The notes under the pieces are model-generated. The model was not told the DNA's origin, searched no databases, and saw only the letters and a program-made list of their open reading frames with translations. From positions 1 to 43,820 of the IMG/VR virus record IMGVR_UViG_3300032213_000931: a DNA stretch of 43,820 nt. One strand, 5' to 3'. This document shows positions 1 to 42,135 of this stretch, piece by piece. The position numbers and the translations under genes are program-made. This DNA comes from a virus. Position 1 is the first letter of the stretch. Every line of letters starts with the position of its first letter.

Positions 1-17
1 AATCTAGGATTGCAATA
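1..17 (-). promoter_or_regulatory. Fourth copy of the early promoter box, cut by the window edge
   Basis: The box TATTGCAA lies on the minus strand at 17-10, one base after the TAG stop (21-19) of the primase-helicase gene. The same box heads the three other leftward operons (near 4680, 6332 and 7880). ATTGCAAT here is a perfect 8-bp palindrome. The spacer and -10 would fall outside the window, so a further leftward operon presumably begins to the left. That is inferred from the other copies. Confidence 0.5.
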
Positions 18-18
18 C

Positions 19-2064
19 CTATTCGTAAAAAATTACACGTCCCCCTTCGATTTTTAGTGGACCGTCCTTTTCGCGGCTCAAACCGTTGATTGCGCGCACC
101 ACAGACTGGCGACGGATGTCCCGTTTGCCGTCCTCTGGGGCGGGCATAAGCTCCACGGCCTTCTCGACGAGTTCATGTGCGCTGACGCTGTCACGCGAGC
201 CGAACAGGGTCATGACTTCGAGGATGTGATTTTCTACACGTCCACGGCGCTTCGTGCCCTTGCGGTCGGCCGGATCTTCAGTCGGCCTCGACAACTCGGC
301 CTCGACCGCGACGCAGCTGGTGATGGTGTCGCCATCAAAGTCGATGCCCAACTCAATCACTTCGAGCTTGAAGCCCCAGCGGATGCCGTCCTCGCCGTCC
401 TTCATCTTCTCGATCACAATCTCACGCTCGCCGTTCTCGTGGCGTAGCACCTCGATCTGGACGTCGGCTGCGGCCTTCAGGCCTGACCAGCCGCGTGAGC
501 CCTTGCTGAGATCCTTGCCCGCGTGGTGGACAATCAGGATCATCGCGCCGGTGGCCTCGTGCAGCAGGCGGATGTTCGCCAGCACGCGGCCCATGTCATC
601 GGACGTGTTCTCGTTCGCGCCGGGCGAGACCTGCGCCAGCGTGTCAATCACAATCACCTGCGGCGTGCCGATGTTCTTGATCTCGGCAATCACCTCGGAG
701 ATGTCGTCCGCGTCCAGAAAGTTCGGGGCGGCCGTGATTACTTGCATGTTCCGTGCGCCGCGCAGGTCGAAGTCGTGGTGATGGGCGTACGCCTCACCGC
801 GCTTGCCGATCCCCGAACCGCCCTCTGCGGCAATCGTGACAACAAGGCCTTCCTTAGTGCGGCGGCCGCGCCAGTCCCTGCCACGCGCGATTGCGAAGGC
901 GATGTCGAGGGCGACGAACGTCTTGCCAGCGCCTGACGCGCCGAACAGGATGCCCATCTGGGCCTTCGGCAGGACGCCCTTGATTAGCCAGCTCATAGGC
1001 TCGCGCTGGGTCAGGTCGTATATCGGCACAGGGCCGAAGCGGCCGACGCTCTTCTTTGGCAGCTCCGCTTGGATTGCCTCGGCCTTGGCCAGCACTTCCT
1101 CGCGGCTGGGCCCCTCGTACGGGCGATAGCCTGCGTCCTTCGCCATCTTGATGACGGACGCCATGGTGACCTGTCGCTTGCCGGGTGCGGGCTTGAAGCT
1201 CTCCCACTGGTAGCGCAGGCTCTCGGTGCTGGGGTATGTTTCGCCCATGGACGACCAATCGTCCCACAGTTCGAAGCCGTCGTCGTCGCCGTCCGTCTCG
1301 TGGTGCAGGGCCATGCCGACGCGCAGCCACGGCTCGCGGCCCATGCTCGGGTCGAGGACGGCCAGCAGGGCCTCCATCTCGCTGATTGACAGGCCAAGAC
1401 GCGGCTCGCGTCCGGCCATGAAGTCGTCAGGGTCGAAGGTCGCACCGGCCGTCGCGCCGAAGCGGCGCTGACAAAGATCCTGCGTGTGCTGGTCGACGTC
1501 GGCGATGCGGTCCTCATAGCCGAGCATCTCGCACGACGGCAGGATGTTGCCGGTAAAGGTCACGAAGCCGGTCGAGCTGAACGTCTCGAAGCCGAACTGG
1601 TCAGGCGTGGACGCGCTCTTGTGGTTGCCCAGATCGCCCTTCAGCGCGGCGCGGATGCCCTTGCCGCTCGGACTGTACTCGGCGTACGTCCGGTTGACAA
1701 TCTGCTCAATCTCTTTGGGCGTGTTGCCGTGGACGTCGACGCAGTTGTCGAAGTCGAGGAACGTGAACCCGAAGTCGGACAGGGGTGCGAAGCCCACGCC
1801 GTCGAAGCCTGCGCGGATGGCAGCGTCGCGCGCCGCCACGAAGGTGGTCAGCCGGTCACGGTCCTGCGGCCCGCCCTGCGTGCCGTGGCGGCGTGTGCCG
1901 TCGGCCCAGAACGGGATCTTGCGCGGCTTGGCCTCGCCGGTGAAATGCTCGAAGCGCCACATCAACCAGCCGGGCAACTCGCGCAAAGGCTCAGGGACGC
2001 GCACGGCGTGGAGCGATGGCGCTATCGCCGGGACGACGGGCCCAATCGCCCGAACATTATCCAT
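19..2064 (-). CDS. PrimPol / PriCT-2 / RecA-fold helicase fusion (replication primase-helicase)
   Basis: Likely synthesises primers (and possibly DNA) and unwinds the template for phage replication. Numbered from the upstream GTG at 2082 (687 aa), it has an N-terminal primase-polymerase-like half with FLDFDNCVD (about 108-116) and SPSGKGIR (137-144). A PriCT-2-like linker follows at about 230-325. The helicase half has Walker A GASGAGKT (381-388), Walker B VIVIDTL (477-482) and IVHH (517-520), as in RepA/AAA_25 hexameric helicases. The GTG overlaps the methyltransferase stop (GTGA) but has no Shine-Dalgarno. The ATG six codons in (2064) is preceded by GAGGA at 7 nt, so I prefer it (681 aa). 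It is the last gene of the operon from about 4680; the next promoter box begins one base after its stop. No other polymerase is visible in the window. The domain order resembles NrS-1-type replicative PrimPols; domain identity is sure, polymerase activity is inferred. Confidence 0.85.
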   Translation of the reverse strand: MDNVRAIGPVVPAIAPSLHAVRVPEPLRELPGWLMWRFEHFTGEAKPRKIPFWADGTRRHGTQGGPQDRDRLTTFVAARDAAIRAGFDGVGFAPLSDFGFTFLDFDNCVDVHGNTPKEIEQIVNRTYAEYSPSGKGIRAALKGDLGNHKSASTPDQFGFETFSSTGFVTFTGNILPSCEMLGYEDRIADVDQHTQDLCQRRFGATAGATFDPDDFMAGREPRLGLSISEMEALLAVLDPSMGREPWLRVGMALHHETDGDDDGFELWDDWSSMGETYPSTESLRYQWESFKPAPGKRQVTMASVIKMAKDAGYRPYEGPSREEVLAKAEAIQAELPKKSVGRFGPVPIYDLTQREPMSWLIKGVLPKAQMGILFGASGAGKTFVALDIAFAIARGRDWRGRRTKEGLVVTIAAEGGSGIGKRGEAYAHHHDFDLRGARNMQVITAAPNFLDADDISEVIAEIKNIGTPQVIVIDTLAQVSPGANENTSDDMGRVLANIRLLHEATGAMILIVHHAGKDLSKGSRGWSGLKAAADVQIEVLRHENGEREIVIEKMKDGEDGIRWGFKLEVIELGIDFDGDTITSCVAVEAELSRPTEDPADRKGTKRRGRVENHILEVMTLFGSRDSVSAHELVEKAVELMPAPEDGKRDIRRQSVVRAINGLSREKDGPLKIEGGRVIFYE

Positions 2065-2078
2065 GTCGTTATCCTCGC

Positions 2079-3656
2079 TCACAAAACTGAAATCAGGTCA
2101 TCAACGGCGTTGATACGCTCACCAATCCAACGCATTACTGGCACCGCCATACTGTTGCCCAGCGCCTTGTAGCGTGGGCCGTCTGGGCAGTCTGCGGCTT
2201 GCTTCTTGCCCCACGGGATTGCCGTGAAGTTGTCGGGGAAGCCTTGCAGCCGTTCGCACTCGACGGGTGTCAGGCGGCGGACGGTTGAGTTTTGCAGTAA
2301 ACTTGGACCAGAAGACAGACCATCACCGCTTTTTGCGCCAAGGGTCGCAGCGACTTCGCCCGTGACCGTGCCGTTGTATGTGTCCGTGAAGGCTGGCACC
2401 ATGACCCCGTCATGGCGGCCTCCGCTCCCACCCCGTTGTATCGTGCCTGCGAGGTCAACACTGGATGTCAGTTCCTCTGACCACGCGATGGCTGGTTCAG
2501 AGAATATATGCTGATCCTGATTGGTGCTTAACGTGAAGGCCACCTCGTCGGAACCCAGATAGCCCTTGCCGCCGCCCTCACAGCCGCCCCTGACCTTGAA
2601 CGCATGTGCTGCGTCGATTGCCACTGCGTGGTGATCGCCTTTGGTCAGCGTGTACATCGCCTCGCCATCGTGGCCAAGGCCGAGGCCAGTGCTGGCCGCA
2701 GCGTCAGGACTTCTGAACGCGTTCATGCTGTTGATGGGGTACGTAGCCACATACGCCTTTGTGTCTGGCGCGTGATGTGATCCGCTCTGCGTGTTCAAGG
2801 CAGGGCTGATGACTGGAACGATATGATCGAAGTCGCCTTGCACACCACCTTCGCCGGGGCGGCGCGTCCGCAGCGTACCGACAACGTCAGGTTCGTCACT
2901 GGCTGTGCTGGCAATCAGCGCCTCACAGCCCGGGCCGAGGTCAGCGCCAGTGCGCAGCAGCGGGCTGCTGTTGTCGCTGGCAGAGTAGGAGCCGATGCCG
3001 CCGCACTCAAACGTGTCTAAATCAGGTCGTGCCCCTCCGTTGCCGCCACTGCCTTCAGCGCCCGTTGCAGCCGCTCTGGCAACTTCTTGCCGCGTCGGTC
3101 GGCTCGGCGCAGGACGCCCTGACATGCTGTGGCGCTCAAAGAGTACCGCTGCGGCAGGTCGCCAGTCTCCAAGGTATCCGACAACGAACACACGACGGCG
3201 TCTTTGGGCCACTCCGAAGTACTGAGCGTCAAGCACTCGGTAGGCGAGGCCATACCCGAGGTCTTCCAACGCCCCGAGGATGGAACCAAAGTCCCGTCCT
3301 CCGTTCGATGACAGGACACCGGGGACATTTTCCCAGACAATCCAGCGAGGTTGCTCTCTTTGAGCCAGTCGGCAAAACTCGAGCGCAAGGTTACCACGGT
3401 CGTCGTCCAGACCGCCTCGCAATCCTGCGACGCTGAATGACTGGCAGGGTGTTCCGCCGACGAGGAGGTCGATATTTCCATATTGGTTTTTCTCAATCGT
3501 TGTGAAGTCGCCGTGCAATGGCACGTCGGGATAGTGGTGTTGAAGCACAGCACAGGGGAACTTTTCAATCTCCGAAAAGAACGCAGGCTCCCAGCCCATG
3601 TGATGCCAAGCAGAAGTGGCGGCCTCGATGCCGCTGCAGACAGATCCGTAGCGCAT
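2079..3656 (-). CDS. C5-cytosine DNA methyltransferase (Dcm family)
   Basis: Transfers a methyl group from SAM to cytosine C5 in DNA. From the ATG at 3656 (525 aa) the motifs are in order: motif I YGSVCSGIEAAT (3-14), motif IV PCQS with catalytic Cys71, motif VI ENV (109-111), motif VIII QRRRR (151-155). A target-recognition region of about 280 residues follows, then late motifs LTPVECERLQGFPDNF and YKALGNSM near the C-terminus. The long TRD with TYPINSMN and TLTKGDHHAVA is seen in many phage orphan Dcm enzymes. A TTG start at 3692 is possible but would overlap the upstream regulator; the ATG lies one base after that gene's TGA and gives the usual MRYGSVCSG N-terminus. No restriction partner is adjacent, so the role is probably self-protection or marking of phage DNA. 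Specificity cannot be read from sequence. Confidence 0.93.
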   Translation of the reverse strand: MRYGSVCSGIEAATSAWHHMGWEPAFFSEIEKFPCAVLQHHYPDVPLHGDFTTIEKNQYGNIDLLVGGTPCQSFSVAGLRGGLDDDRGNLALEFCRLAQREQPRWIVWENVPGVLSSNGGRDFGSILGALEDLGYGLAYRVLDAQYFGVAQRRRRVFVVGYLGDWRPAAAVLFERHSMSGRPAPSRPTRQEVARAAATGAEGSGGNGGARPDLDTFECGGIGSYSASDNSSPLLRTGADLGPGCEALIASTASDEPDVVGTLRTRRPGEGGVQGDFDHIVPVISPALNTQSGSHHAPDTKAYVATYPINSMNAFRSPDAAASTGLGLGHDGEAMYTLTKGDHHAVAIDAAHAFKVRGGCEGGGKGYLGSDEVAFTLSTNQDQHIFSEPAIAWSEELTSSVDLAGTIQRGGSGGRHDGVMVPAFTDTYNGTVTGEVAATLGAKSGDGLSSGPSLLQNSTVRRLTPVECERLQGFPDNFTAIPWGKKQAADCPDGPRYKALGNSMAVPVMRWIGERINAVDDLISVL

Positions 3657-3657
3657 A

Positions 3658-3894
3658 TCAGATTGTGCTGGGCAAGCTGAGGGTGCGGACAAGATCTGGG
3701 TTCATTGTGTCAGTGCGCGGGATGCCGAACACAGCCTCAAGCATAACGGCGCGCTCGGGTGGCACCCAGCCTCTGGCCTTCCAACTGTAAACGGCCTGAT
3801 GGGTAACCTTCAGGCGCTGGCAGAACTTGACGATACCACCGCCCCGCTCGATGGCGAGGTCAAGGGCGGCGATACGTTCATCTTTGGTGGTCAT
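3658..3894 (-). CDS. Cro/YdaS-like helix-turn-helix regulator
   Basis: 78 aa. The core (about residues 8-55) runs from ALDLAIERGGG through KFCQRLKVTHQAVYSWKARG to PPERAVMLEAVFG, the arrangement of the Cro/YdaS family: a helix-turn-helix with a Q-AVYSWKARG recognition helix, then a Pro-Glu-Arg turn. It is the only recognisable transcription regulator in the window. Its ATG overlaps the stop of the upstream small gene (ATGA), so it is co-expressed with methyltransferase and primase-helicase from the promoter at about 4680. It probably binds phage operators; the TGCAA inverted repeats in the early promoters or the iterons at 7896-8137 are candidate sites, which is inference. Confidence 0.75.
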   Translation of the reverse strand: MTTKDERIAALDLAIERGGGIVKFCQRLKVTHQAVYSWKARGWVPPERAVMLEAVFGIPRTDTMNPDLVRTLSLPSTI

Positions 3895-4082
3895 GCTGCT
3901 ACTTTCGATGTTTCCTGCCTGAAACTCTCTTCTCGGAGGCCCCAGACGCGTGTGATAATCATATGCTCAGTCCTGAGCTGGTTGATTTGGTTGTTGATTG
4001 CGCGCAGCTCAGCTTCGAGCTTGTCGCGCTTGGCGAAGGCCTTGCGGCCCTCTGCGTGGATGGTCTTGAGATCTCGTGTCAT
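3891..4082 (-). CDS. Small coiled-coil protein, unknown function
   Basis: 63 aa. Residues about 12-40 form a charged heptad-like helix (KAFAKRDKLEAELRAINNQI). No known domain recognised. Its stop overlaps the start of the Cro-like gene and its start overlaps the stop of the upstream gene by ATGA, so it is a translationally coupled member of the operon. A GGGGAG Shine-Dalgarno precedes the ATG. Reality is supported by coupling and RBS; function unknown. Confidence 0.65.
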   Translation of the reverse strand: MTRDLKTIHAEGRKAFAKRDKLEAELRAINNQINQLRTEHMIITRVWGLREESFRQETSKVAA

Positions 4083-4309
4083 TTGAAGCGCTCCCCTTTC
4101 TTGCCGATGCGGCCGGTCTTCGGGTTGCGGAAGTGTGCGTCATTGAGCAGGTCGGTCAGACGCTCGATGTGGGTCTTGTGGATGCGGTTCCGCAACTCGG
4201 CCTCTTTCAGCTTTAGCTCAAGCCGAGCGTTCATTGCGAGGGCGTAGTCGGCCTCCGACTTGTAGGCTTCAATCGCCTTGCGTGCGGCCCATGGCCAGAT
4301 GATGCTCAT
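4079..4309 (-). CDS. Small helical protein, unknown function
   Basis: 76 aa. An N-terminal WPWAARKAIEAYKSE is followed by a long amphipathic helix rich in Glu, Leu and Lys, and a basic tail (NPKTGRIGKKGERFK). Start overlaps the upstream stop (ATGA) with GGGAG 7 nt before. No family recognised. The basic tail and helical body could mean nucleic-acid or protein binding, but nothing in the sequence settles this. Confidence 0.65.
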   Translation of the reverse strand: MSIIWPWAARKAIEAYKSEADYALAMNARLELKLKEAELRNRIHKTHIERLTDLLNDAHFRNPKTGRIGKKGERFK

Positions 4310-4620
4310 GCGTACTCTCCCAGTTTTCCGGCGGCGATTGCCTCCTCAATGATGTTGATAAGTTTGGCTGCCAGCTTGTCGTAGCCGACGGCCCAGCCCA
4401 TGGATGCGTAGCGGTGCGCGTCCGTGCGCTCATAGATGTCGAACGAGGTGCCGTGATCCCAGACAACCACGTCGGTCGTCTCGCCTTCGAGGTAAACGTC
4501 GAAGTCGGCAGTCGCGCCTTGCTCAGGCTCGTAGCCGTCCCAGCTGACGGTGATGTCGAGCTTGGTGCGCGCCTTGAGGGCCTTGTTGATCTGGCTTTCG
4601 GTGTATTCAGGGTTGTCCAT
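4306..4620 (-). CDS. Unknown early protein, first gene of the left operon
   Basis: 104 aa from the ATG at 4620 (MDNPEY). An upstream in-frame ATG at 4665 would lie inside the promoter element, so I reject it; AAAGG sits 7-8 nt before the chosen start. The protein is acidic with alternating beta-type segments (KLDITVSWDGYEPEQ, DFDVYLEGETTDVVVWDHG) and a C-terminal helix. I do not recognise the family. It is the first gene after the promoter/leader at 4635-4680. Confidence 0.7.
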   Translation of the reverse strand: MDNPEYTESQINKALKARTKLDITVSWDGYEPEQGATADFDVYLEGETTDVVVWDHGTSFDIYERTDAHRYASMGWAVGYDKLAAKLINIIEEAIAAGKLGEYA

Positions 4621-4634
4621 TTTGGTACCTTTCA

Positions 4635-4680
4635 CGTTGCTGATGCAGCCTTGTGGCAGATGCAATGCAACCTTGCAATA
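4635..4680 (-). promoter_or_regulatory. Early promoter cassette, copy 3 (box, -10, conserved leader)
   Basis: Minus strand: TATTGCAA (4680-4673), 17-nt spacer, CACAAG (4655-4650) as a -10-like hexamer, then after 2 nt the leader TGCATCAGCAACG (4647-4635). The leader is identical over 13 nt to the copy at 7847-7835 and stands at the same distance from the -10. TGCAA-GG-TTGCA forms a perfect inverted repeat over the -35 region. The previous operon's TAG stop lies 2 nt before the box. Confidence 0.65.
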
Positions 4681-4682
4681 CC

Positions 4683-4796
4683 CTATCGATGATTTTCATC
4701 ATCTTTATACTCGTCGATTGCTCGATGCAGCCAATCTCCCACCCAGACTGCGCCCAGCATCAGCAGGATGACACCGATAAAGAGGACGGCCTCCAT
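4683..4796 (-). CDS. 37-aa single-pass membrane peptide
   Basis: The ATG at 4796 overlaps the upstream stop (TGATG). The product begins MEAVLFIGVILLMLGAVWVG, a hydrophobic helix of about 18 residues, then a short polar tail (DWLHRAIDEYKDDENHR). The only upstream purine-rich stretch is weak, so it may depend on coupled translation. It is the last gene of its operon: its TAG stop is 2 nt from the next promoter box. No family recognised. Two other tiny membrane proteins (30 and 42 aa) occur in these early operons. Confidence 0.6.
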   Translation of the reverse strand: MEAVLFIGVILLMLGAVWVGDWLHRAIDEYKDDENHR

Positions 4797-5047
4797 CACG
4801 CGTTGCCTGCTGCGCTGAACATAACCCTGTCCGAGTATGTTCGCACCACAATCATTTGGCCCATGGCTTGGGTAACATCGGCCACATCCGCAAGGTCGTC
4901 CATCGCCATCAGTTCTTTGTACAGCAGCTGGAGCAGGACTTCCGCCCGGCAGATCCGCTCGCTGTCGTCAAAGATGTCCCAGAGGACATCGCCAATCTCT
5001 TGCTTCGCCGTTTCGTACGCTCGATCATAGCGTTCGTCTTCAGTCAT
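4796..5047 (-). CDS. Small acidic helical protein, unknown function
   Basis: 83 aa, MTEDERYDRAYETAKQEIGD onward, predicted mostly helical and acidic in the first half. AAGGG lies just before the ATG. It overlaps the upstream 41-aa gene by 8 nt and the downstream membrane peptide by TGATG. No domain recognised. Confidence 0.65.
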   Translation of the reverse strand: MTEDERYDRAYETAKQEIGDVLWDIFDDSERICRAEVLLQLLYKELMAMDDLADVADVTQAMGQMIVVRTYSDRVMFSAAGNA

Positions 5048-5165
5048 CTTTTTTCCCTTCGATCAGGTGGTTCAGCCCGAGGCGCTTCGCCTCACGCTCA
5101 AGGTGTTGGACCCTGCGCCGAGCCAGCTCCAGCTGCTGGGGCAAGATCCTGATGCGGTACTTCAT
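5040..5165 (-). CDS. 41-aa basic helical peptide, unknown function
   Basis: Open from ATG 5165 to TGA at 5042-5040. The product (MKYRIRILPQQLELARRRVQ then a Lys/Arg-rich helix to KKDD) is basic and helical. GAGG stands 3 nt before the ATG, a tight spacing. It overlaps the next gene by 8 nt, and otherwise this stretch would be the only gap in a gapless operon. No family recognised. Confidence 0.5.
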   Translation of the reverse strand: MKYRIRILPQQLELARRRVQHLEREAKRLGLNHLIEGKKDD

Positions 5166-5185
5166 GTACCTCAGTGCGTCTGGCG

Positions 5186-5263
5186 TCAAAATCGGATCTC
5201 CCCGTCGGCCCAGTCGTAAATATCCCAGCCGAAATTATCTTGCAGGAATTGACGCAGGGTCAT
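5186..5263 (-). CDS. 25-aa peptide, probable minigene
   Basis: ATG 5263 overlaps the stop of the upstream gene (TAATG) and has GGGAG 8 nt before it. The product starts MTLRQFLQDNFGWDIYDWAD and ends GEIRF. Coupling and RBS favour translation. Length and lack of any recognised family keep confidence moderate. Confidence 0.45.
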   Translation of the reverse strand: MTLRQFLQDNFGWDIYDWADGEIRF

Positions 5264-5547
5264 TACCCCTTCTCCCGTATCTCCAGCCCTTGGGCTTTCA
5301 GTGCGGTGCGGATTTCTTCCGCCATGTCTTCGGCATCAGCATCGTAATAACCCATGCTTTCCGCCACCCCCACCAGCGGGTCAGGCTTGGGCTTGGTGAT
5401 GATGAGCGGGTCAAGCATTGCAGCACCCCAACTGGTAACGGCGCAACTCTCAATGACTTTCTCAACCGTATCGCTCACCTCTTGTTTAAAGACACTAAGC
5501 TTTTGCTCGGTGGCTTCGCAGTTTGGACAGTGCTGGGTCTTAATCAT
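5263..5547 (-). CDS. Unknown early protein with an N-terminal CPNC pair
   Basis: 94 aa from ATG 5547, preceded by AAGGAAAGGAAAG. A much longer in-frame extension upstream to 5724 lacks an RBS and overlaps the Cys-rich gene in another frame, so I reject it. The N-terminus MIKTQHCPNCEATEQKL has one CxxC pair; the middle is helical and the C-terminus is an acidic helix (DADAEDMAEEIRTALKAQG). Function unknown. Confidence 0.65.
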   Translation of the reverse strand: MIKTQHCPNCEATEQKLSVFKQEVSDTVEKVIESCAVTSWGAAMLDPLIITKPKPDPLVGVAESMGYYDADAEDMAEEIRTALKAQGLEIREKG

Positions 5548-5563
5548 TTTGCTTTCCTTTCCT

Positions 5564-5770
5564 TTATGTAGCTGAATAGCTTTTGCGTGGGCACATTGGC
5601 GATTGGCACGTTTGCTCACTGGTAGGTGGGCAGATGCAGCCACGCAGCGGTGCAGTATCTTGCTGGCTCCACCGTTCCCGCAGACAGCCAAACTGGGCGC
5701 ACAGGACATTGGCGCAGGGCGCATGGCAGGGTGGTGCTACCCCAAAAGCGGCTAACCATCCTTCAGTCAC
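5564..5770 (-). CDS. 68-aa cysteine-rich protein, possible metal binder
   Basis: GTG start at 5770 with an excellent GGGAGG 5 nt upstream; the start overlaps the previous stop as GTGA. The product carries two Cys clusters: CHAPCANVLCAQFGC (about residues 15-29) and CICPPTSEQTCQSPMC (about 45-60). This spacing suggests zinc or disulphide binding. The stop lies directly before the next gene's Shine-Dalgarno. A 47-codon ORF in another frame lacks an RBS. Function unknown. Confidence 0.6.
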   Translation of the reverse strand: MTEGWLAAFGVAPPCHAPCANVLCAQFGCLRERWSQQDTAPLRGCICPPTSEQTCQSPMCPRKSYSAT

Positions 5771-5949
5771 AGCGACCTCCCAATCTCAATGCCCTTGCGG
5801 ATGCCTTGCTCGACCAGACGCATCCAGACCGTGTGGTCGTATTCGCCAGACATATATAGCGACATTTCTGGGGTATCGCTCTTCGCGGCTTGGTTGGAGC
5901 AGATAGCCCGTGCGGCTTCGCGGATTGTCATATCATCTTCGTTGGTCAT
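5767..5949 (-). CDS. Small early protein, unknown function
   Basis: 60 aa from the ATG at 5949 (MTNEDDMTIREAARAICSNQ). That start overlaps the upstream stop as ATGA and has GAGGA 9 nt before it, so it is better than the ATG three codons earlier. The sequence looks helical with a C-terminal VEQGIRKGIEIGRSL. No family recognised. Confidence 0.6.
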   Translation of the reverse strand: MTNEDDMTIREAARAICSNQAAKSDTPEMSLYMSGEYDHTVWMRLVEQGIRKGIEIGRSL

Positions 5950-6074
5950 CCCCACCATTCCTCTTCCATGCTCTTACGCTCTTCGTCGGTGATGACTGGC
6001 CGGGTGGCGATGAGCCACCCAGTCAGGCCGAGCAGTCCGATGACAATGACGAACAGCAGACGCTCGCCGCTCAT
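5946..6074 (-). CDS. 42-aa single-pass membrane peptide
   Basis: ATG 6074 overlaps the upstream stop (ATGA). The product has one strong hydrophobic helix (LLFVIVIGLLGLTGWLIA, about residues 6-23) followed by an acidic/basic tail (TDEERKSMEEEWWG). Both ends are translationally coupled to neighbours. Function unknown; small early membrane proteins of phages often act on host envelope functions, which is only an analogy. Confidence 0.6.
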   Translation of the reverse strand: MSGERLLFVIVIGLLGLTGWLIATRPVITDEERKSMEEEWWG

Positions 6075-6268
6075 TTGCCGCGTTCCCGCATGGCGACATC
6101 GAAGTCGTGAGCTGCAGTGCGCATGTACTGGCCGATGAAGACGGCGGCGGCTTGGGGTTCGTCCTCTGGCACGATGCCGAAGATCTTTTCGAAGGCTACT
6201 GACGCCTCGTATGCGTATCGGTTGGCCGTCATGTGGGCCTGCTTCATTGCGTCGTCTGGGGTAAGCAT
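6071..6268 (-). CDS. Small helical protein, first gene of the middle operon
   Basis: 65 aa (MLTPDDAMKQAHMTANRYAY onward), with AAAGGAG placed ideally before the ATG. It follows the promoter cassette at 6287-6332. It appears fully helical, without a recognised domain. Confidence 0.65.
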   Translation of the reverse strand: MLTPDDAMKQAHMTANRYAYEASVAFEKIFGIVPEDEPQAAAVFIGQYMRTAAHDFDVAMRERGK

Positions 6269-6286
6269 CTCGTTTCTCCTTTGATG

Positions 6287-6332
6287 CGTTGTTGATGGGG
6301 TCTTATGCCAAGTGCGATTGCACCTTGCAATA
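6287..6332 (-). promoter_or_regulatory. Early promoter cassette, copy 2
   Basis: Minus strand: TATTGCAA (6332-6325), 17-nt spacer, CATAAG (6307-6302), then a leader at 6299-6287 matching 10 of 13 bases of the leaders at 4647 and 7847, at the same distance from the -10. ATTGCA-AGG-TGCAAT is a perfect 6+6 inverted repeat over the -35. The preceding operon's TAG stop (6336-6334) is one base away; TTTTAGCTATTGCAA is shared exactly with the copy at 7880. Confidence 0.7.
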
Positions 6333-6333
6333 G

Positions 6334-6597
6334 CTAAAACTCTTCGCCGCAGGCTTCGCAGAACTCAGCCTCCTCAATCGTGACGGTGAAGCCTGCCTTG
6401 CGCAGGGTGCCGACAGTCAGGCGGTTGGTCAGGATGAGGGATTTCTCCAGCACCTCGCTCAGGCTTTTCTGCGTCTCCCTGTGGGCACGGCGCTCACGCT
6501 CTAACTCGTCGTTGGCGCGCTTGAGCATCTCACTCAGGTTGTCAATCTTCCACTGAAACTCCTCTGGGTTGCCTTCGGGTGTGTCTTCGGTGATCAT
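6334..6597 (-). CDS. Coiled-coil protein with C-terminal Cys pair, unknown function
   Basis: 87 aa from ATG 6597, which overlaps the upstream stop as ATGA; a long upstream extension in this frame is rejected. A coiled coil (about residues 16-55, KIDNLSEMLKRANDELERER onward) is followed by FCEACGEEF with a CxxC pair at the C-terminus. It is the last gene of its operon. Function unknown. Confidence 0.65.
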   Translation of the reverse strand: MITEDTPEGNPEEFQWKIDNLSEMLKRANDELERERRAHRETQKSLSEVLEKSLILTNRLTVGTLRKAGFTVTIEEAEFCEACGEEF

Positions 6598-6827
6598 GGC
6601 TTGTCCTCGTACTTCTGGCGCTCGACCAGCATGGCCTGAGCAACGAAGTAGGCGCTTGCGGCAGCCTCTTCGGGTGTGAACTTGACGCCCTTTGAGCGCC
6701 CAGCCAGCAAGCCGGTGAGCGCCTGCCCAGCGAACCAGTCGCGCAGGCCCATGCCGTCTTGAAACATTTCCCACTCGCCGGGGACGGCTACGGGGAACGC
6801 GCAGATGTCCAGATCTTCTTCAGCCAT
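6594..6827 (-). CDS. Unknown early protein
   Basis: 77 aa, beginning MAEEDLDICAFPVAVPGEWE, with aromatic and helical segments (GLRDWFAGQALTGLL, FTPEEAAASAYFVAQAML). GGGAG lies 8 nt before the ATG. The segment FTPEEAAASAYFVAQAMLVER resembles a short helical motif found in many phage hypothetical proteins; no function is known to me. Confidence 0.65.
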   Translation of the reverse strand: MAEEDLDICAFPVAVPGEWEMFQDGMGLRDWFAGQALTGLLAGRSKGVKFTPEEAAASAYFVAQAMLVERQKYEDKP

Positions 6828-6830
6828 TGG

Positions 6831-6923
6831 TCAGGCTCCCTTCAGTGTCTTGATGATTGCCCAGATGGACAGAACCCCGACGCCCAAAAAGAACGTGGTC
6901 GATGCGATGTGTAAGAGGTTCAT
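6831..6923 (-). CDS. 30-aa single-pass membrane peptide
   Basis: ATG 6923 overlaps the upstream stop (ATGA), and AAGGA sits 6-7 nt upstream. The product is almost entirely one hydrophobic helix (FFLGVGVLSIWAIIKTLKGA) with a Lys-containing end. Function unknown. Confidence 0.55.
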   Translation of the reverse strand: MNLLHIASTTFFLGVGVLSIWAIIKTLKGA

Positions 6924-7183
6924 GCTGCTTCCTTCTCTTGTTGTTGGATGTGTAGTGCCTCGTCGAGCAGCTGCTCGCGCAGCGTGTGCAGCGCGGCCAG
7001 TCGGTCGAAGTGGATGTTGCGGTCTGCGGCACAGGCCAGCGTGTCGCTGGGGTAGTCGCGACCGTTGGGCGTGACCTGCTTGAGCGCCTCGATGGCGTCC
7101 ATCAGGTGGTCCATCGCATTGCGGCGTGGGTTCATGAGGTCAAAGGCGCTGGAGCCGTTGATGTTCAGTGTTGGTCGGATCAT
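6920..7183 (-). CDS. Unknown early helical protein
   Basis: 87 aa, start MIRPTLNINGSSAFDLMNPR; AGGAG is 9 nt before the ATG. Helices include MDHLMDAIEALKQV and a C-terminal coiled-coil-like LREQLLDEALHIQQQEKEAA. Phage proteins with the layout 'short N-terminus, MDAIEAL, PN-RDY, LREQL' are common but unnamed. Function unknown. Confidence 0.65.
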   Translation of the reverse strand: MIRPTLNINGSSAFDLMNPRRNAMDHLMDAIEALKQVTPNGRDYPSDTLACAADRNIHFDRLAALHTLREQLLDEALHIQQQEKEAA

Positions 7184-7186
7184 GGC

Positions 7187-7378
7187 TCAAATCTCCTGTG
7201 TGCTGCTGTGGCCGTGCGCTTCATACGCATCGGTGTCGAAGATAAGTTTGCTGATGTCCTCGCCACGGAGGTCGCGGCACAGCTTGCGGTATCCGCCTTG
7301 GGGCGGATGGTTCTTGGTATCGCGGCGATACACATAGCCCTTCTTGGCCATGTCGTTGCGGATTTGGTCAGTAAGCAT
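7187..7378 (-). CDS. Small basic protein, unknown function
   Basis: 63 aa, MLTDQIRNDMAKKGYVYRRD onward, with AGGAG upstream. The N-terminal half is basic and the C-terminal half polar. No domain recognised. Confidence 0.6.
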   Translation of the reverse strand: MLTDQIRNDMAKKGYVYRRDTKNHPPQGGYRKLCRDLRGEDISKLIFDTDAYEAHGHSSTQEI

Positions 7379-7395
7379 ACTGCTGTCTCTCCTGC

Positions 7396-7578
7396 TTAGA
7401 AGTTGTCGTTGTTGCGAAGTTGGAACATGACGCTGTCGAACTTGCGCTCTTGCTGTTCCGTCAGTTCGGCGGTGTCCAAGAAGCGGTCCATGCTGCGATG
7501 AACCACGCGGGCGCGGTCATAGTCCTTGGCCTCTAGGGCGGCGTTGGCGCGGTTCAGAAGATCATAAAATTGTGTCAT
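7396..7578 (-). CDS. Small helical protein, unknown function
   Basis: 60 aa, MTQFYDLLNRANAALEAKDY onward, helical, with AGGAG 10 nt before the ATG. It begins just downstream (in the sense of transcription) of a GC hairpin at 7608-7623. Function unknown. Confidence 0.6.
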   Translation of the reverse strand: MTQFYDLLNRANAALEAKDYDRARVVHRSMDRFLDTAELTEQQERKFDSVMFQLRNNDNF

Positions 7579-7607
7579 GTTGTGTTGCTCCTGTTGCTGA
7601 TAAGGGT

Positions 7608-7623
7608 GGGGGCCGGAGCCCCC
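7608..7623 (-). terminator. GC hairpin between the first two early genes
   Basis: GGGGGC-CGGA-GCCCCC is a perfect 6-bp stem with a 4-nt loop, located between the stop of the first early gene and the RBS of the next. No T-run follows on the minus strand, so it is more likely an attenuator or mRNA-stabilising hairpin than a full terminator. Confidence 0.35.
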
Positions 7624-7629
7624 GTTGGG

Positions 7630-7815
7630 TTAGGCTGTGATGAACTCTGCGCTTAGCTCTGCGAACAGTGCGTCGATCCGGCGGCGCTTTGCTGATATGC
7701 GGGTTTGGCGGGGCTTGGTGTGCGCGTCATACAGGCCGCACTGCCAGATGGGATTGCCCTCGTCGTCGAAGCGCTTGTTCCACGCACCGCCGCAGTCACA
7801 TTCTTTCTTAGCCAT
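7630..7815 (-). CDS. 61-aa putative zinc-ribbon-like protein, first early gene
   Basis: Starts at ATG 7815 (MAKKECDCGGAWNKRFDDEG), with GGAG 9 nt before; an in-frame extension to 7878 runs through the promoter element and is rejected. A CxC pair near the N-terminus and a single Cys in IWQCGLYD give at most a degenerate metal site. The C-terminus is basic then helical (ISAKRRRIDALFAELSAEF). It is the first gene transcribed leftward from the divergent control region. Function unknown. Confidence 0.65.
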   Translation of the reverse strand: MAKKECDCGGAWNKRFDDEGNPIWQCGLYDAHTKPRQTRISAKRRRIDALFAELSAEFITA

Positions 7816-7834: not shown

Positions 7835-7880
7835 CGTTGCTGATGCACTCTCCTAGTCGATGCAATCTGAGGTTGCAATA
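7835..7880 (-). promoter_or_regulatory. Early promoter cassette, copy 1
   Basis: Minus strand: TATTGCAA (7880-7873), 17-nt spacer, TAGGAG (7855-7850, a poor -10), then leader TGCATCAGCAACG (7847-7835), identical to the copy at 4647-4635. TGCAA-7 nt-TTGCA is a perfect inverted repeat. It is the most upstream leftward promoter seen, at the edge of the iteron field. Confidence 0.6.
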
Positions 7881-7895
7881 GCTAAAATGAAAAAA

Positions 7896-8137
7896 GTTTG
7901 CAGCACGTGCATTTTTTTACTCGTGCTGCAAATGCTGCATCGTGATGCGTGCTGCAGGGGTCATTTGCAGCATGAGTAATTTTTTACCAGTACCGCAGAA
8001 ATGCTGAGGTTTTTGGGCATTTGCAGCACGAAAATCGCTTCACGCTGCAAGTCGTGCTGCACGCTGCAGGCAGTGCTGCAGCACCGATGCAGGGTCATAA
8101 ACTACGTTTATGCCCTTCTCGTGCTGCACGCTGCACG
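7896..8137. repeat. Iteron field (GCTGCA/TGCAGC), candidate replication origin or master operator
   Basis: The gap 7816-8245 holds no gene. Within 7899-8135 the hexamer GCTGCA occurs nine times on + (starting 7925, 7934, 7951, 8044, 8056, 8063, 8075, 8123, 8130) and four times inverted (7899, 7966, 8022, 8077). About 0.1 would be expected by chance on both strands. TCGTGCTGCACGCTGCA (17 nt) is directly repeated at 8052 and 8119, with a variant at 7921. GTGCTGCAAATG (7923-7934) is a perfect inverse of 8018-8029, and GTGCTGCAGCAC (8073-8084) is a 12-bp palindrome. A/T-rich tracts lie at 7885-7899, 7911-7919 and 7977-7986. Iterons plus A/T tracts at a divergence point fit an origin or repressor operator; which of the two is inference. 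Confidence 0.7.
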
Positions 8138-8245: not shown

Positions 8246-8734
8246 ATGCCATACCCGGCCAAGAAGAACCCCAAGCTCATCGAAGAAGTGCTGTCGCGTA
8301 TCGCGCAAGGCGAGACGTTGGCTGCGCTCGGCCGTGAGTTGGATTTCCATCCGCAGAGTTGGGCTGATTGGATGCGCGCAGACGAAGCCTTGGCCATCGC
8401 GTACGCAGACGCGCGCGACACGGGCCATGACGTCATCGCCGAGGACGCGCTGCGCATCATCGACGAAGAACCAGAGCGCGTGGTGCAGATTGACGAGGAC
8501 GGCAAGAAGTCAACGTCGCGCATCGACAGCGCCGGTGTCGCGTGGGCAAAGAACCGCGCAGAGCTTCGCCTCAAGCTGCTGGCGAAGTGGAACCCGAAGA
8601 AGTACGGCGACAAGCAGACGGTCGACGTCGGCAACAAGGACGGCGAGACGCTGAAGGTCGACAACGGTGTGGACACCGTCGCGCTCACGCTGCAGCTCGC
8701 TGAGGCGCTGCGCGCAAAGGGTGACGACAAGTGA
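8246..8734 (+). CDS. Terminase small subunit
   Basis: 162 aa. Recognises phage DNA and feeds it to the large subunit. An N-terminal helix-turn-helix (about residues 8-45: LIEEVLSRIAQGETLAALGR, then WADWMRADEALAIAYADARD) leads into a helical oligomerisation region. The tail is the characteristic RAELRLKLLAKWNPKKYGDK followed by a polar region. This is the Sf6/terminase-small-like layout. GGAG lies 7 nt before the ATG. It is the first rightward gene and is followed by a coiled-coil ORF and the large subunit. Confidence 0.85.
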   Translation: MPYPAKKNPKLIEEVLSRIAQGETLAALGRELDFHPQSWADWMRADEALAIAYADARDTGHDVIAEDALRIIDEEPERVVQIDEDGKKSTSRIDSAGVAWAKNRAELRLKLLAKWNPKKYGDKQTVDVGNKDGETLKVDNGVDTVALTLQLAEALRAKGDDK

Positions 8735-39367: not shown

Positions 39368-42135
39368 TGGTACAACAACGCGATCCGTGGGAGCGCCCCG
39401 GTCCCTCGCTCAAAGAGCAAGGGATGCAGACTAATATATCTCAAGGCCAGACCAGCATTCAGCAAGGCCAGACCAGCATCGCGCGCGGGCAGGCAGATTT
39501 GCCGTATATCGCGCCGACTGCACAGGCGCAGCTTGACCGTCTAATCTTGCAAAACGAAGATTTGCAGCGCCAACTCGAAAAGGCCAAGAAGGGCGAACCC
39601 CTTGCTGGCGACGACAAGACGCGCCTGATCACAGACGTCGATGCCTATGAAAAGTTGATGCGGGCCATCAACAAGTTCGACCCAGACTATGTTGGGACGG
39701 TACTTGATTTCCCCGGCGAAATCGAAAACGTCATCCAGAAGCGCGTAAACAGCGACTTCGGGACACCGGGGCAAGCTGATTTTTGGTCTGAGATGAAGTT
39801 TCTCGACATGTTGACGCGGAACAAGTTCTTCGGTGCGTCGCTCACGGGCAACGAAAAGCAGTCCTACGCCGAAACTACCATCTCGCCGGGCGTGACACCC
39901 GAAACGGCTTTGGCCAACCTCAAGCGCCGCGCTGATACCGTGCGTACCGGCATCCAGCGCAACGTCCGCAGCTTGATGGAGGGCGGCTACCGCCCCGCGC
40001 AAATTAACGCTCAACTCGGGGAATACCTCCCCGAACTTAACCCGCGTTGGATGACGAGCGAGAACGAGCGTGCTTTGGCCGCGTACGCCAGCAGCGAAGA
40101 TTACAACCCAGCTGTCTACAAACAGATGATCCTTGAGCTTGGCGACGCCAACGGTCTGCGCCTCGAACCAGCGGCAGCAGAAGCCGCCGCCAACACCGTA
40201 GCCGAAATGCGTGCAAAGGGCCAAACCTCCTTTGGTGGGGCTGCCGTGTACCAAGGACTGGAAAAGCCAGAAGACGAAGCGGCGGCCGGTACAACTGGCA
40301 CCGGCGCGGGTGGCGATGGCACGGGCGGTGACGGCGATGGCCTCGGCTGGGGTGAAACCCTCGGTAGCGCTCTCATCAATCTTCCGCGCAGCACTATGGA
40401 CGAACTGGGCGGCATCTGGGACGCTGTCACGAGCCCCATTCAGACAGCTAAGTCAATCGGCTCACTCGGTGGCGCACTGCTCAGCAAGATGGGCGTGGCT
40501 GACTTCGACGAGAGCAGCGCCGACGCACTGGGCCAGTATTACGCCAACAAGTACGGCAGCATCGAAGGCTTCAAGAAAGAGCTGGCGAACAACCCAGCCA
40601 GCATCTTGGCCGACGTTGCGACCGTGCTTACTGCGGGCGCGGGTACTGTCACAAAGCTCGGCCTTCCGGCCAAGATTGCCAAACTCGGTCGCCGCGCCGA
40701 TGTGGCCCAGCAATTTGTTGGTGCTGTTGCGCGCAACGTCGACCCAATCACGGCCATGACAAACATCGTCACTAAAGCGGTCCCTGCTGCGATTAAGGTG
40801 ACCGGAAAGGGTGCTGGTAAAGTGACCAGCACCGCGCTTGGTATGACGACGGGCGCTGGCGGAGAGAGTATTATCCGCGCGGCTGATGTTGGCTTTGAGC
40901 GCGGCCGCGCTGGCGAACGCACAGCTCGCGAGGTTAACTTTGTCGAGCAGATGCGCGGCGGTGGCGACATTGACGACATCGTCTCGCAGGCGGAAAACTT
41001 GCTGCGCGGCCAACAGGAAGCTGCGTCGCTGGCCTATAAAAACGGCATGGTTGACGTTGCTAGGGACGCTACTCAGCTCAGTTTCGACGGCATCGATAGC
41101 ACTCTCGCCGAGTTGCGCGACCGCGCCTATTTCGGTGATCAGGTCCGTAACCCGACCGCTGCGAAGGTGTACAACGAGATTAAGGCCAAGATTGACGAGT
41201 GGCGCGAGCTAGACCCAGCGCAGTATCACACGCCGGAAGGCATGGATGCGTTGAAGCAAAACATCGGCGGTATTATAGATGGCCTCGCCGCGAACGGTGA
41301 CCGCGCCGCGCTTAGCGTTGCGACTGGCGTCTATAACAAGGTGCGAAACGACATCGCTAAGCAGGTACCCAGCTACGCCAAGATTATGAAGAGTTACGAA
41401 GATGCCGCGAACAACATTCGTGAAATCCGTCGCACCTTCAGCCTGACGCCCAACGCTAATGTCGATACGAAGCTGCGCAAGCTCCAGTCGCTTATGCGCA
41501 ACAACGTGAACACCAGCTACGGCTACCGTCAAAAGCTGGCAGAAGGCATGGGCGCTCCTGAAGGCGCACCGGCGCAAATCAAGGTCACGGGGACGCCGAA
41601 GACCAAGGAAGAGCTTCTTGCTGAATACGCGCCACAGACAGGCGCGGATCTTTTGGACACACTCTCGGCGCAGAACCTTAGTTCGTGGGAGCCTCGCGGT
41701 TTGCAGCGTCTCACAAGCGGCGCGGCGGCGACCAGCGGTATCGCTGGCATCGGCCTCAACATGATCCCAATGTCTTTGGACGTTCCGAGTTACCTGAGCG
41801 GGTATAATCTGGCGGCCATCCCGCTCAGCATGCCGCGCGTTGTTGGCGAGGGTGCCTACTACGCCGGACGCGGAGCTGGCGCGGCTAGTCGTCTTACGGA
41901 CCCAGTAACGTCGCGCTTCGGCAAAACCATCGACTGGCTCGCAGACAAACAGAAAGAATACCGCGACCCGCTAGTCTACGCCGGTTTCGGCGCGCAGAAC
42001 ATCGGAGCGATGCAAGAAGAGCCGACCGTCGTTGACGAGGACGCGGAGTTCTTCATCCTTTCCGACGGCACGAAAATCCGCAAGCCAGTGCAGAAAGCGC
42101 TGGGTGGTCTCACACGTAAGTACGGGATGCGCTGA
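39367..42135 (+). CDS. Large candidate internal virion/ejection protein
   Basis: 922 aa. Gln-rich coiled N-terminus (SQGQTSIQQGQTSIARGQAD, LDRLILQNEDLQRQLEKAKK), helical middle, a Gly-rich linker (TGTGAGGDGTGGDGDGLGWG) and a long helical and hydrophobic C-terminal half (ADVATVLTAGAGTVTKLGLP, AATSGIAGIGLNMIPMSLDV, RGAGAASRLTDPVTSRFG). The alternation of amphipathic helices and hydrophobic patches fits proteins that form the DNA-ejection conduit. No lytic transglycosylase motif seen. TAATG coupled to the previous gene. Confidence 0.5.
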   Translation: MVQQRDPWERPGPSLKEQGMQTNISQGQTSIQQGQTSIARGQADLPYIAPTAQAQLDRLILQNEDLQRQLEKAKKGEPLAGDDKTRLITDVDAYEKLMRAINKFDPDYVGTVLDFPGEIENVIQKRVNSDFGTPGQADFWSEMKFLDMLTRNKFFGASLTGNEKQSYAETTISPGVTPETALANLKRRADTVRTGIQRNVRSLMEGGYRPAQINAQLGEYLPELNPRWMTSENERALAAYASSEDYNPAVYKQMILELGDANGLRLEPAAAEAAANTVAEMRAKGQTSFGGAAVYQGLEKPEDEAAAGTTGTGAGGDGTGGDGDGLGWGETLGSALINLPRSTMDELGGIWDAVTSPIQTAKSIGSLGGALLSKMGVADFDESSADALGQYYANKYGSIEGFKKELANNPASILADVATVLTAGAGTVTKLGLPAKIAKLGRRADVAQQFVGAVARNVDPITAMTNIVTKAVPAAIKVTGKGAGKVTSTALGMTTGAGGESIIRAADVGFERGRAGERTAREVNFVEQMRGGGDIDDIVSQAENLLRGQQEAASLAYKNGMVDVARDATQLSFDGIDSTLAELRDRAYFGDQVRNPTAAKVYNEIKAKIDEWRELDPAQYHTPEGMDALKQNIGGIIDGLAANGDRAALSVATGVYNKVRNDIAKQVPSYAKIMKSYEDAANNIREIRRTFSLTPNANVDTKLRKLQSLMRNNVNTSYGYRQKLAEGMGAPEGAPAQIKVTGTPKTKEELLAEYAPQTGADLLDTLSAQNLSSWEPRGLQRLTSGAAATSGIAGIGLNMIPMSLDVPSYLSGYNLAAIPLSMPRVVGEGAYYAGRGAGAASRLTDPVTSRFGKTIDWLADKQKEYRDPLVYAGFGAQNIGAMQEEPTVVDEDAEFFILSDGTKIRKPVQKALGGLTRKYGMR

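Follow-up and report, generated by a model that had tools for sequence, protein, structure and literature searches.

A candidate phage replication origin with an array of short sites that may be read by the C-terminal winged helix of a PrimPol-helicase

Between the leftward early genes and the rightward late genes of the window (the whole stretch of DNA analysed, an IMG/VR virus record of 43,820 bases), a dense array of a short asymmetric site was identified together with a stem-loop. We propose, with a probability of roughly 60%, that this field is the phage replication origin at which a PrimPol-RepA-type helicase would be loaded, with the predicted C-terminal winged helix of this protein reading the sites and its residue 656 helping to set one variable base. 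The features computed in support of this are the array, its conservation, the in-register switching of its sites among relatives, the stem-loop, the predicted fold of the C-terminal domain, the stand-alone copies of that domain and the covariation of residue 656 with the array word. A preliminary description of this DNA had offered two roles for the field, as loading site of the PrimPol-helicase or as operator of a Cro-like protein; the former is retained here, while the latter is not. As far as the literature was searched, the origins and origin-binding parts of PrimPol-RepA-type tailed phages are little described, and no description of such an element was found.

The array and its locus

Coordinates of the features are given in Table 1. 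A search of both strands located 13 matches to GCTGCA/TGCAGC, starting at 7899 to 8130 with the last ending at 8135, irregularly spaced and in both orientations (nine facing right and four left). The small terminase gene begins at 8246, 111 bp downstream of the array. This recount agrees with the 13 hexamers in about 240 nt given in the preliminary description, although its expectation of about 0.1 is too low, approximately 0.27 GCTGCA words being expected per 240 nt. When the window was simulated 60 times with an order-2 Markov model, at most 7 copies of any 6-mer, and 5 of GCTGCA, fell within 240 nt. Over the whole window GCTGCA occurs 51 times against 48.5 expected, so that outside the array it is found at the expected rate. 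The possibility of a restriction-site decoy or a genome-wide word was rejected, as the word shows no avoidance or enrichment in the remainder of the sequence.

Other repeats named earlier were also recovered. The two copies of the 17-nt direct repeat TCGTGCTGCACGCTGCA, at 8052 and 8119, match exactly and the 12-bp palindrome GTGCTGCAGCAC was found at 8073-8084, while the perfect inverse pair reported as 12 nt (7923/8018) is real but was understated in length, extending over 15 nt (7921-7935 and 8017-8031). A further inverted pair of 18 nt (94%) is situated at 7917-7934 and 7962-7979. The field is otherwise unoccupied, as had been stated, with no conserved coding there; the conserved flank that extends the site to CRYG-N-TGCA and the bulged stem-loop at 8091-8116 are features absent from the earlier account.

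Table 1. Features of the window and of the intergenic field, with coordinates on the window

Feature	Position	Strand	Remark
IMG/VR virus record (the window)	43,820 bases
PrimPol-helicase (AEP PrimPol + PriCT_2 + RepA-type AAA_25 helicase), 687 aa	19..2082	-	proposed array-binding initiator
PrimPol-helicase C-terminal domain, residues 598-687, predicted winged helix	22..291	-
Ile656 codon, first position of predicted recognition helix	115..117	-	covaries with array word
Cro/YdaS-like HTH protein	3658..3894	-	binder role not supported
Leftward early genes	1-7815	-
First leftward early gene, 61 aa	7630..7815	-	left border of field
A/T-rich tracts around site 1	7880..7919		sequence, GC 0.33
Array, 13 copies of 9-bp site CRYG-C-TGCA	7899..8135	9 on +, 4 on -	both-strand word search
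Site 1	7899..7907	-	word match; 9-bp extent from copy alignment
Site 2	7922..7930	+	word match
Site 3	7931..7939	+	word match
Site 4	7948..7956	+	word match
Site 5	7966..7974	-	word match
A/T-rich block GTAATTTTTTACCAGTACCGCAGAAATGCTG	7976..8006	+	conserved in several C- and T-type arrays; local GC 0.38-0.42
Site 6	8022..8030	-	word match
Site 7	8041..8049	+	word match
Site 8	8053..8061	+	word match
Site 9	8060..8068	+	word match
Site 10	8072..8080	+	overlaps site 11 within 12-bp palindrome 8073-8084
Site 11	8077..8085	-	left border of stem-loop gap
Bulged stem-loop AGGGTCATAAAC-TAC-GTTTATGCCCT	8091..8116		inside gap between inverted site pair
Site 12	8120..8128	+	right border of stem-loop gap
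Site 13	8127..8135	+	word match
Small terminase (Sf6-type, PF20901)	8246..8734	+	first rightward late gene, right border of field; binder role not supported

GC content falls to 0.33-0.42 in several 40-nt intervals of 7861-8020, compared to approximately 0.6 overall, and the A/T-rich block at 7976..8006 is a possible unwinding element. A minimum of cumulative GC skew had been suggested as a check; it lies away from the array, a result that is uninformative for an incomplete record and for phage genomes, in which skew follows the orientation of the genes. Rfam returned only two weak hits, far below gathering scores.

Site unit and in-register switching among relatives

Relatives were gathered by terminase-based and PrimPol-based scans of IMG/VR. 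Dozens of related phages were found to possess one array at the same place with similar spacing; most relatives with enough flank hold one dense array at the equivalent place between early and late genes, and the long genomes hold one each, which bears out the conservation that the preliminary description had proposed to look for. A consensus derived from 159 copies of 14 GCTGCA arrays and 126 copies of T-type arrays defined the unit as a 9-bp asymmetric site, CRYG-N-TGCA, in which the three bases 5' of the core are kept and the bases 3' of it are not. In the array of the window, N is C in 13 of the 14 RYGNTGCA copies.

Across the relatives the array word is GCTGCA, GTTGCA or GGTGCA (C, T and G arrays), with rarer, unrelated words in fewer phages (GTGACA, CATGG, ACATCTC, ACTGGGG, GGACAT and CCCCTAA). 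Position N is nearly uniform inside an array, with the class base at 131/168 copies in C arrays, 105/130 in T arrays and 35/51 in G arrays. When C- and T-type arrays are aligned, the sites lie in register and their flanks are preserved; in L097, each of the 11 intact sites that align with the window has T in place of C. Arrays also share their spacing pattern (e.g. 56, 22, 12, 7 ... 46, 7). On the PrimPol tree of 28 phages at least nine changes of word were counted, and phages L263 (GTTGCA) and L265 (GGTGCA) differ in their words with PrimPol proteins that are 97% identical. Gene conversion of whole repeat units fits these data poorly because the flanks stay position-specific, while selection by a sequence-specific reader would fit the in-register switching.

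The cultured relatives RW and KcrB (Caulobacter phages, PrimPol 49% identical) were found to have no array, and no such array was present in the stretches searched of the named relatives KcrB, SR18 and Jess A. The PrimPol scan of genome contigs matched one MAG contig, which came without host information.

Some relatives possess additional repeats. A second word, TTACTGGGG, in approximately five copies and with a hairpin, adjoins the array in both L125 (3770-4190) and L127 (1-400), although one of these two phages has GTTGCA as its other word and one has GCTGCA. At the same locus in L118 (1330-1730) the word is GAGATGT/ACATCTC, in approximately five copies that are accompanied by a CTACTATATCTACGATATAG hairpin. 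L286 and L360 contain a repeat of another kind around 5700-5900, with approximately 20 copies of GGCTAC/GCCGTAGC in 200 nt, sitting 4.1-4.3 kb upstream of the PrimPol gene.

The stem-loop

An inverted pair of sites was found to enclose a gap of 41-61 nt in 30 of the 31 arrays examined, and a stem within this gap was identified at p<=0.02 under shuffling in 24 of 30. As 26 distinct stem sequences occur among the 30 arrays, it is the stem that is kept while its sequence differs. With the sites alone held fixed, the arrays show a folding excess over the null sequences on both strands, but this excess is small once the stem-loop is also held fixed (z -1.1 for the window, mean z -1.9). Therefore, the stem-loop is the structured part of the array and the sites behave as sites.

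In the close relatives L248 (2109-2400), L249 (3700-4700) and L010, a stand-alone winged-helix gene either takes the place of the right half of the array with its stem-loop or interrupts it. A different covarying hairpin was observed in these same relatives, CATCATCACTT...AAGTTGATGATG versus CAGCAGCACTT...AAGTTGCTGCTG.

The PrimPol-helicase and its C-terminal domain

The PrimPol gene lies 5.8 kb from the array, and the record of the window is without the early genes beyond it. The N-terminal half of the protein matches solved primases and its helicase half matches RepA of RSF1010 (1g8y, E 3.9e-5, residues 362-528). For the C-terminal domain (the last ~80 aa), AlphaFold predicted the order helix-strand-helix-helix-strand-strand, that of a winged helix, with a pLDDT of 82. 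Foldseek matches to solved winged helices were weak (best E 0.03), and among viral proteins the best matches were to two from phages, 692 and 686 residues long, one of which has an annotation as an AAA-domain protein.

In 17 loci of relatives a homologue of this domain is encoded adjacent to the array by a gene of its own, mostly between the array and the terminase, the corresponding 111-bp slot of the window being without one. A search for class-specific genes returned a G-class family that was later recognised as this stand-alone winged-helix gene; it adjoins the array in three G-class phages and may supply the specificity of G arrays. The preliminary description held the PrimPol-helicase to be without a recognisable origin-binding part, which is probably wrong given the predicted winged helix. 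Such a part is probably present, because the C-terminal winged helix, its stand-alone copies and the tracking of the array word by residue 656 all point to it, and these same comparative data support the role of the field as the loading site of this protein.

In other relatives, the space that separates array and terminase is taken up by a second small family, WTTVKVxADGRxxxKANYWLGWNGxRF (motif ANYWLGWNG). It occurs beside arrays at L131:3475-4281 and L137:2163-2708, in both of which it is fused to the stand-alone winged-helix domain, and also in L027, L016, L009, L100 and L030.

Covariation of residue 656 with the array word

Residue 656 is the variable position x of KRD[x]RRQ and opens the predicted recognition helix. 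Isoleucine was found here in 14 of 15 phages with C arrays and in none of 12 others, in which the residue is Thr (T arrays) or Thr or Leu (G and CATGG arrays). Among 768 columns of the PrimPol alignment this position ranked first for separating C from non-C phages (Fisher 7.5e-7). It also ranked first by phylogenetically independent contrasts, with four in the same direction and none opposite, although the sign test (0.125) falls short of significance.

The link was found by a column scan and then checked on a modest held-out set, which comprised the unused contigs with a clear array among further PrimPol loci fetched with other queries. Ile656 was present in 8/8 held-out contigs with C arrays and 0/3 with non-C arrays; these contigs are partly close to the earlier ones and represent approximately six independent lineages. 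Valine occupies the position in L391 (same record as G024), whose array is a mixture of C and T. Two exceptions were identified, namely C phage G006/L285, which carries Thr656, and L228, which has Ile656 but in which no array was found. Residue 656 does not separate T from G arrays, the recognition helices of L263 (T) and L265 (G) being identical.

A putative mechanism

Taken as an origin, the field would consist of the array of short monomeric CRYG-N-TGCA sites and the stem-loop. The winged helix of the PrimPol-helicase (residues 598-687) would bind the sites and so concentrate the primase-helicase at the array, with residue 656 helping to set the variable base (Ile for C, Thr or Leu for another base). 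Neighbouring A/T-rich blocks, such as that at 7976-8006, would then open, with priming or assembly perhaps taking place at the stem-loop. Origin function, like binding, unwinding and priming, is what we infer from the sequence comparisons. Weighing against this reading are the 5.8 kb between the array and the PrimPol gene, the lack of an array in RW and KcrB and in what was searched of L228, the weak Foldseek matches, the Thr656 of G006/L285, the small number of independent contrasts and the identical recognition helices of L263 and L265. We suggest more tentatively, as a reading that could well prove wrong, that the PrimPol-helicase carries its own origin reader and that, across one phage clade, the array has been re-targeted many times by a simultaneous one-base change in every site together with a change of one helix residue, with the stand-alone copies beside the array adding specificities (e.g. 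GGTGCA) or control.

If true, this would provide a recognisable origin signature and a candidate one-residue specificity switch that is testable in vitro. It would also offer a natural series of origins whose sites have switched in register, relevant to the question of how an initiator can change jointly with a dozen sites, and would suggest that there is selection for divergent origins between co-infecting or parasitising elements.

Alternative explanations

The array could instead be an operator field for another phage regulator, controlling divergent early and late promoters with a specificity that diverges rapidly as in heteroimmune phages. This we consider unlikely. The array does lie exactly between divergent early and late genes, its sites are short, asymmetric and in both orientations, and its rapid change of specificity resembles stoperator/repressor divergence (PMC6550527); the stand-alone winged-helix genes beside arrays could be such regulators. 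However, the slot of the window holds no such gene, and none of 221 gene families compared over near-whole genomes tracks the word, in whole-protein tests that are too coarse to see residue 656. The same holds for whole-protein nearest-neighbour tests of the early genes, equally too coarse for that residue, in which none tracked the word. The Cro-like HTH is identical in T and G phages, and no sigma-70-like promoter was found, by a scan whose reach does not extend to alphaproteobacterial promoters. As for the Cro-like protein (3658-3894) being itself the regulator, as put forward in the preliminary description, it is present in 24 of 34 related records, but its recognition helix is unchanged across phages with GCTGCA, GTTGCA and GGTGCA arrays. 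Between L263 and L265 it differs by one residue, outside the HTH, and between G019 and G022 by four; its operator role is hardly credible. An Xre-type HTH gene of some T phages was rejected as the reader, near-identical copies occurring with other words. This Xre-like early gene was observed at L115:2604-3152, L141:2013-2723 and in relatives, whose array words differ.

Reading of the array by a host DNA-binding protein, with the word following the host, would have a parallel in the dense CtrA-site regions between divergent genes of other alphaproteobacterial phages (PMC9437464), and could accommodate close phages with different words such as L263 and L265. The motif of the array is nevertheless not TTAA-N7-TTAA, at least nine switches would not be needed for a conserved host factor, and it is a residue of the phage's own protein that tracks the word, making this reading improbable. 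An explanation without any sequence-specific reader, in which the copies must pair with each other in RNA or in a cruciform while template switching homogenises them and so yields concerted change, draws on the inverted copies, on the folding excess over nulls on both strands with sites fixed, and on the lack of any one gene family that follows the word in comparisons of whole proteins. In its pure form it was rejected as the folding excess comes mostly from the stem-loop, and we regard it as very improbable, given that little excess remains with the stem-loop fixed, that direct copies also switch (nine plus and four minus in the window), that conservation of the CRY flank is one-sided and that residue 656 covaries. 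It is scarcely probable, lastly, that the array is a packaging site (pac/cos region) bound by the small terminase, even though it adjoins the TerS gene and the 2,940-bp direct terminal repeat of KcrB (L204, 2864-3218) has its end at the corresponding place, inside the intergenic region that separates leftward from rightward genes. L005 (GTTGCA) shares the N-terminal HTH of its TerS with the window (GCTGCA), yet that of L083 (GCTGCA) is unrelated.

Comparison with known systems

Like iteron-type origins, the array packs a short site many times over into a single compact stretch of non-coding DNA. In phage P4 (alpha) and phage lambda (O), a phage initiator acts with iterons, and ori specificity types diverge between related phages; here, in contrast, the iterons lie in an intergenic array far from the gene, and domain order and primase type differ. 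The oriV of IncQ plasmid RSF1010 (RepC iterons, RepA helicase and ssi hairpins for RepB') likewise combines iterons and stem-loop with a RepA-fold hexameric helicase and a primase, and a helicase of the RepA family is present here (1g8y match; AAA_25). However, RepC of RSF1010 binds 20-bp tandem iterons, while the sites described here are 9-bp, irregular and in both orientations; primase and helicase are here one protein with a C-terminal winged helix, with one stem-loop instead of ssiA/ssiB. No Pfam hit to a RepC-like initiator was obtained among 46 early proteins of relative G018.

The PrimPol replicon of pRN1 (ORF904) is similar in that its AEP PrimPol has a winged helix at the C-terminus, that the PrimPol gene has a small repressor gene upstream and that there is a stem-loop, which in pRN1 is needed for replication and conserved in structure but not in sequence (PMC4234260). 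Differences are that pRN1 is without iterons, that its stem-loop lies downstream of its own gene and that an SF3 helicase is situated between PrimPol and winged helix, where AAA_25 (RepA fold) is found here. With short, irregular sites, a helicase outside SF3 and no RepC-like initiator recovered in the search, the array system belongs to neither the RSF1010 nor the pRN1 type.

A precedent for covarying origin modules is provided by the PLE satellites of Vibrio cholerae, in which the DNA-binding domains of the RepA initiator covary with the origin iterons and both are swapped under selection (PMC8263062). In that system the covariation involves the RepA_N domain as a whole, whereas here a single helix residue tracks the word and arrays change in register. 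The stoperators of cluster A mycobacteriophages are also short asymmetric sites of group-specific sequence with monomeric recognition (PMC9283540, PMC6550527), but these are spread over temperate phage genomes, while here there is one compact array per genome with no enrichment elsewhere and no repressor. The CtrA-site regions of alphaproteobacterial phages (PMC9437464), although likewise dense clusters between divergent genes, consist of TTAA-N7-TTAA rather than CRYG-N-TGCA, and the motif described here changes between relatives.

Other observations

In record G046 (L289), the large terminase (40673-42114) was matched only piecewise, with the best match crossing six TGA codons, indicating either frame damage or TGA recoding. 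A gene for a C5 cytosine methyltransferase is situated between the Cro-like and PrimPol genes of the window (2079-3692); it was clustered in only 6 of the 25 phage sequences compared, with the Cro-like gene elsewhere mostly directly before PrimPol. A phage homologue of GapR (PF10073), a host nucleoid protein, was identified at L205:3466-3717 (record G018) with homologues in most relatives, sitting in the replication module and adjoining an Enc34-type ssDNA-binding protein.
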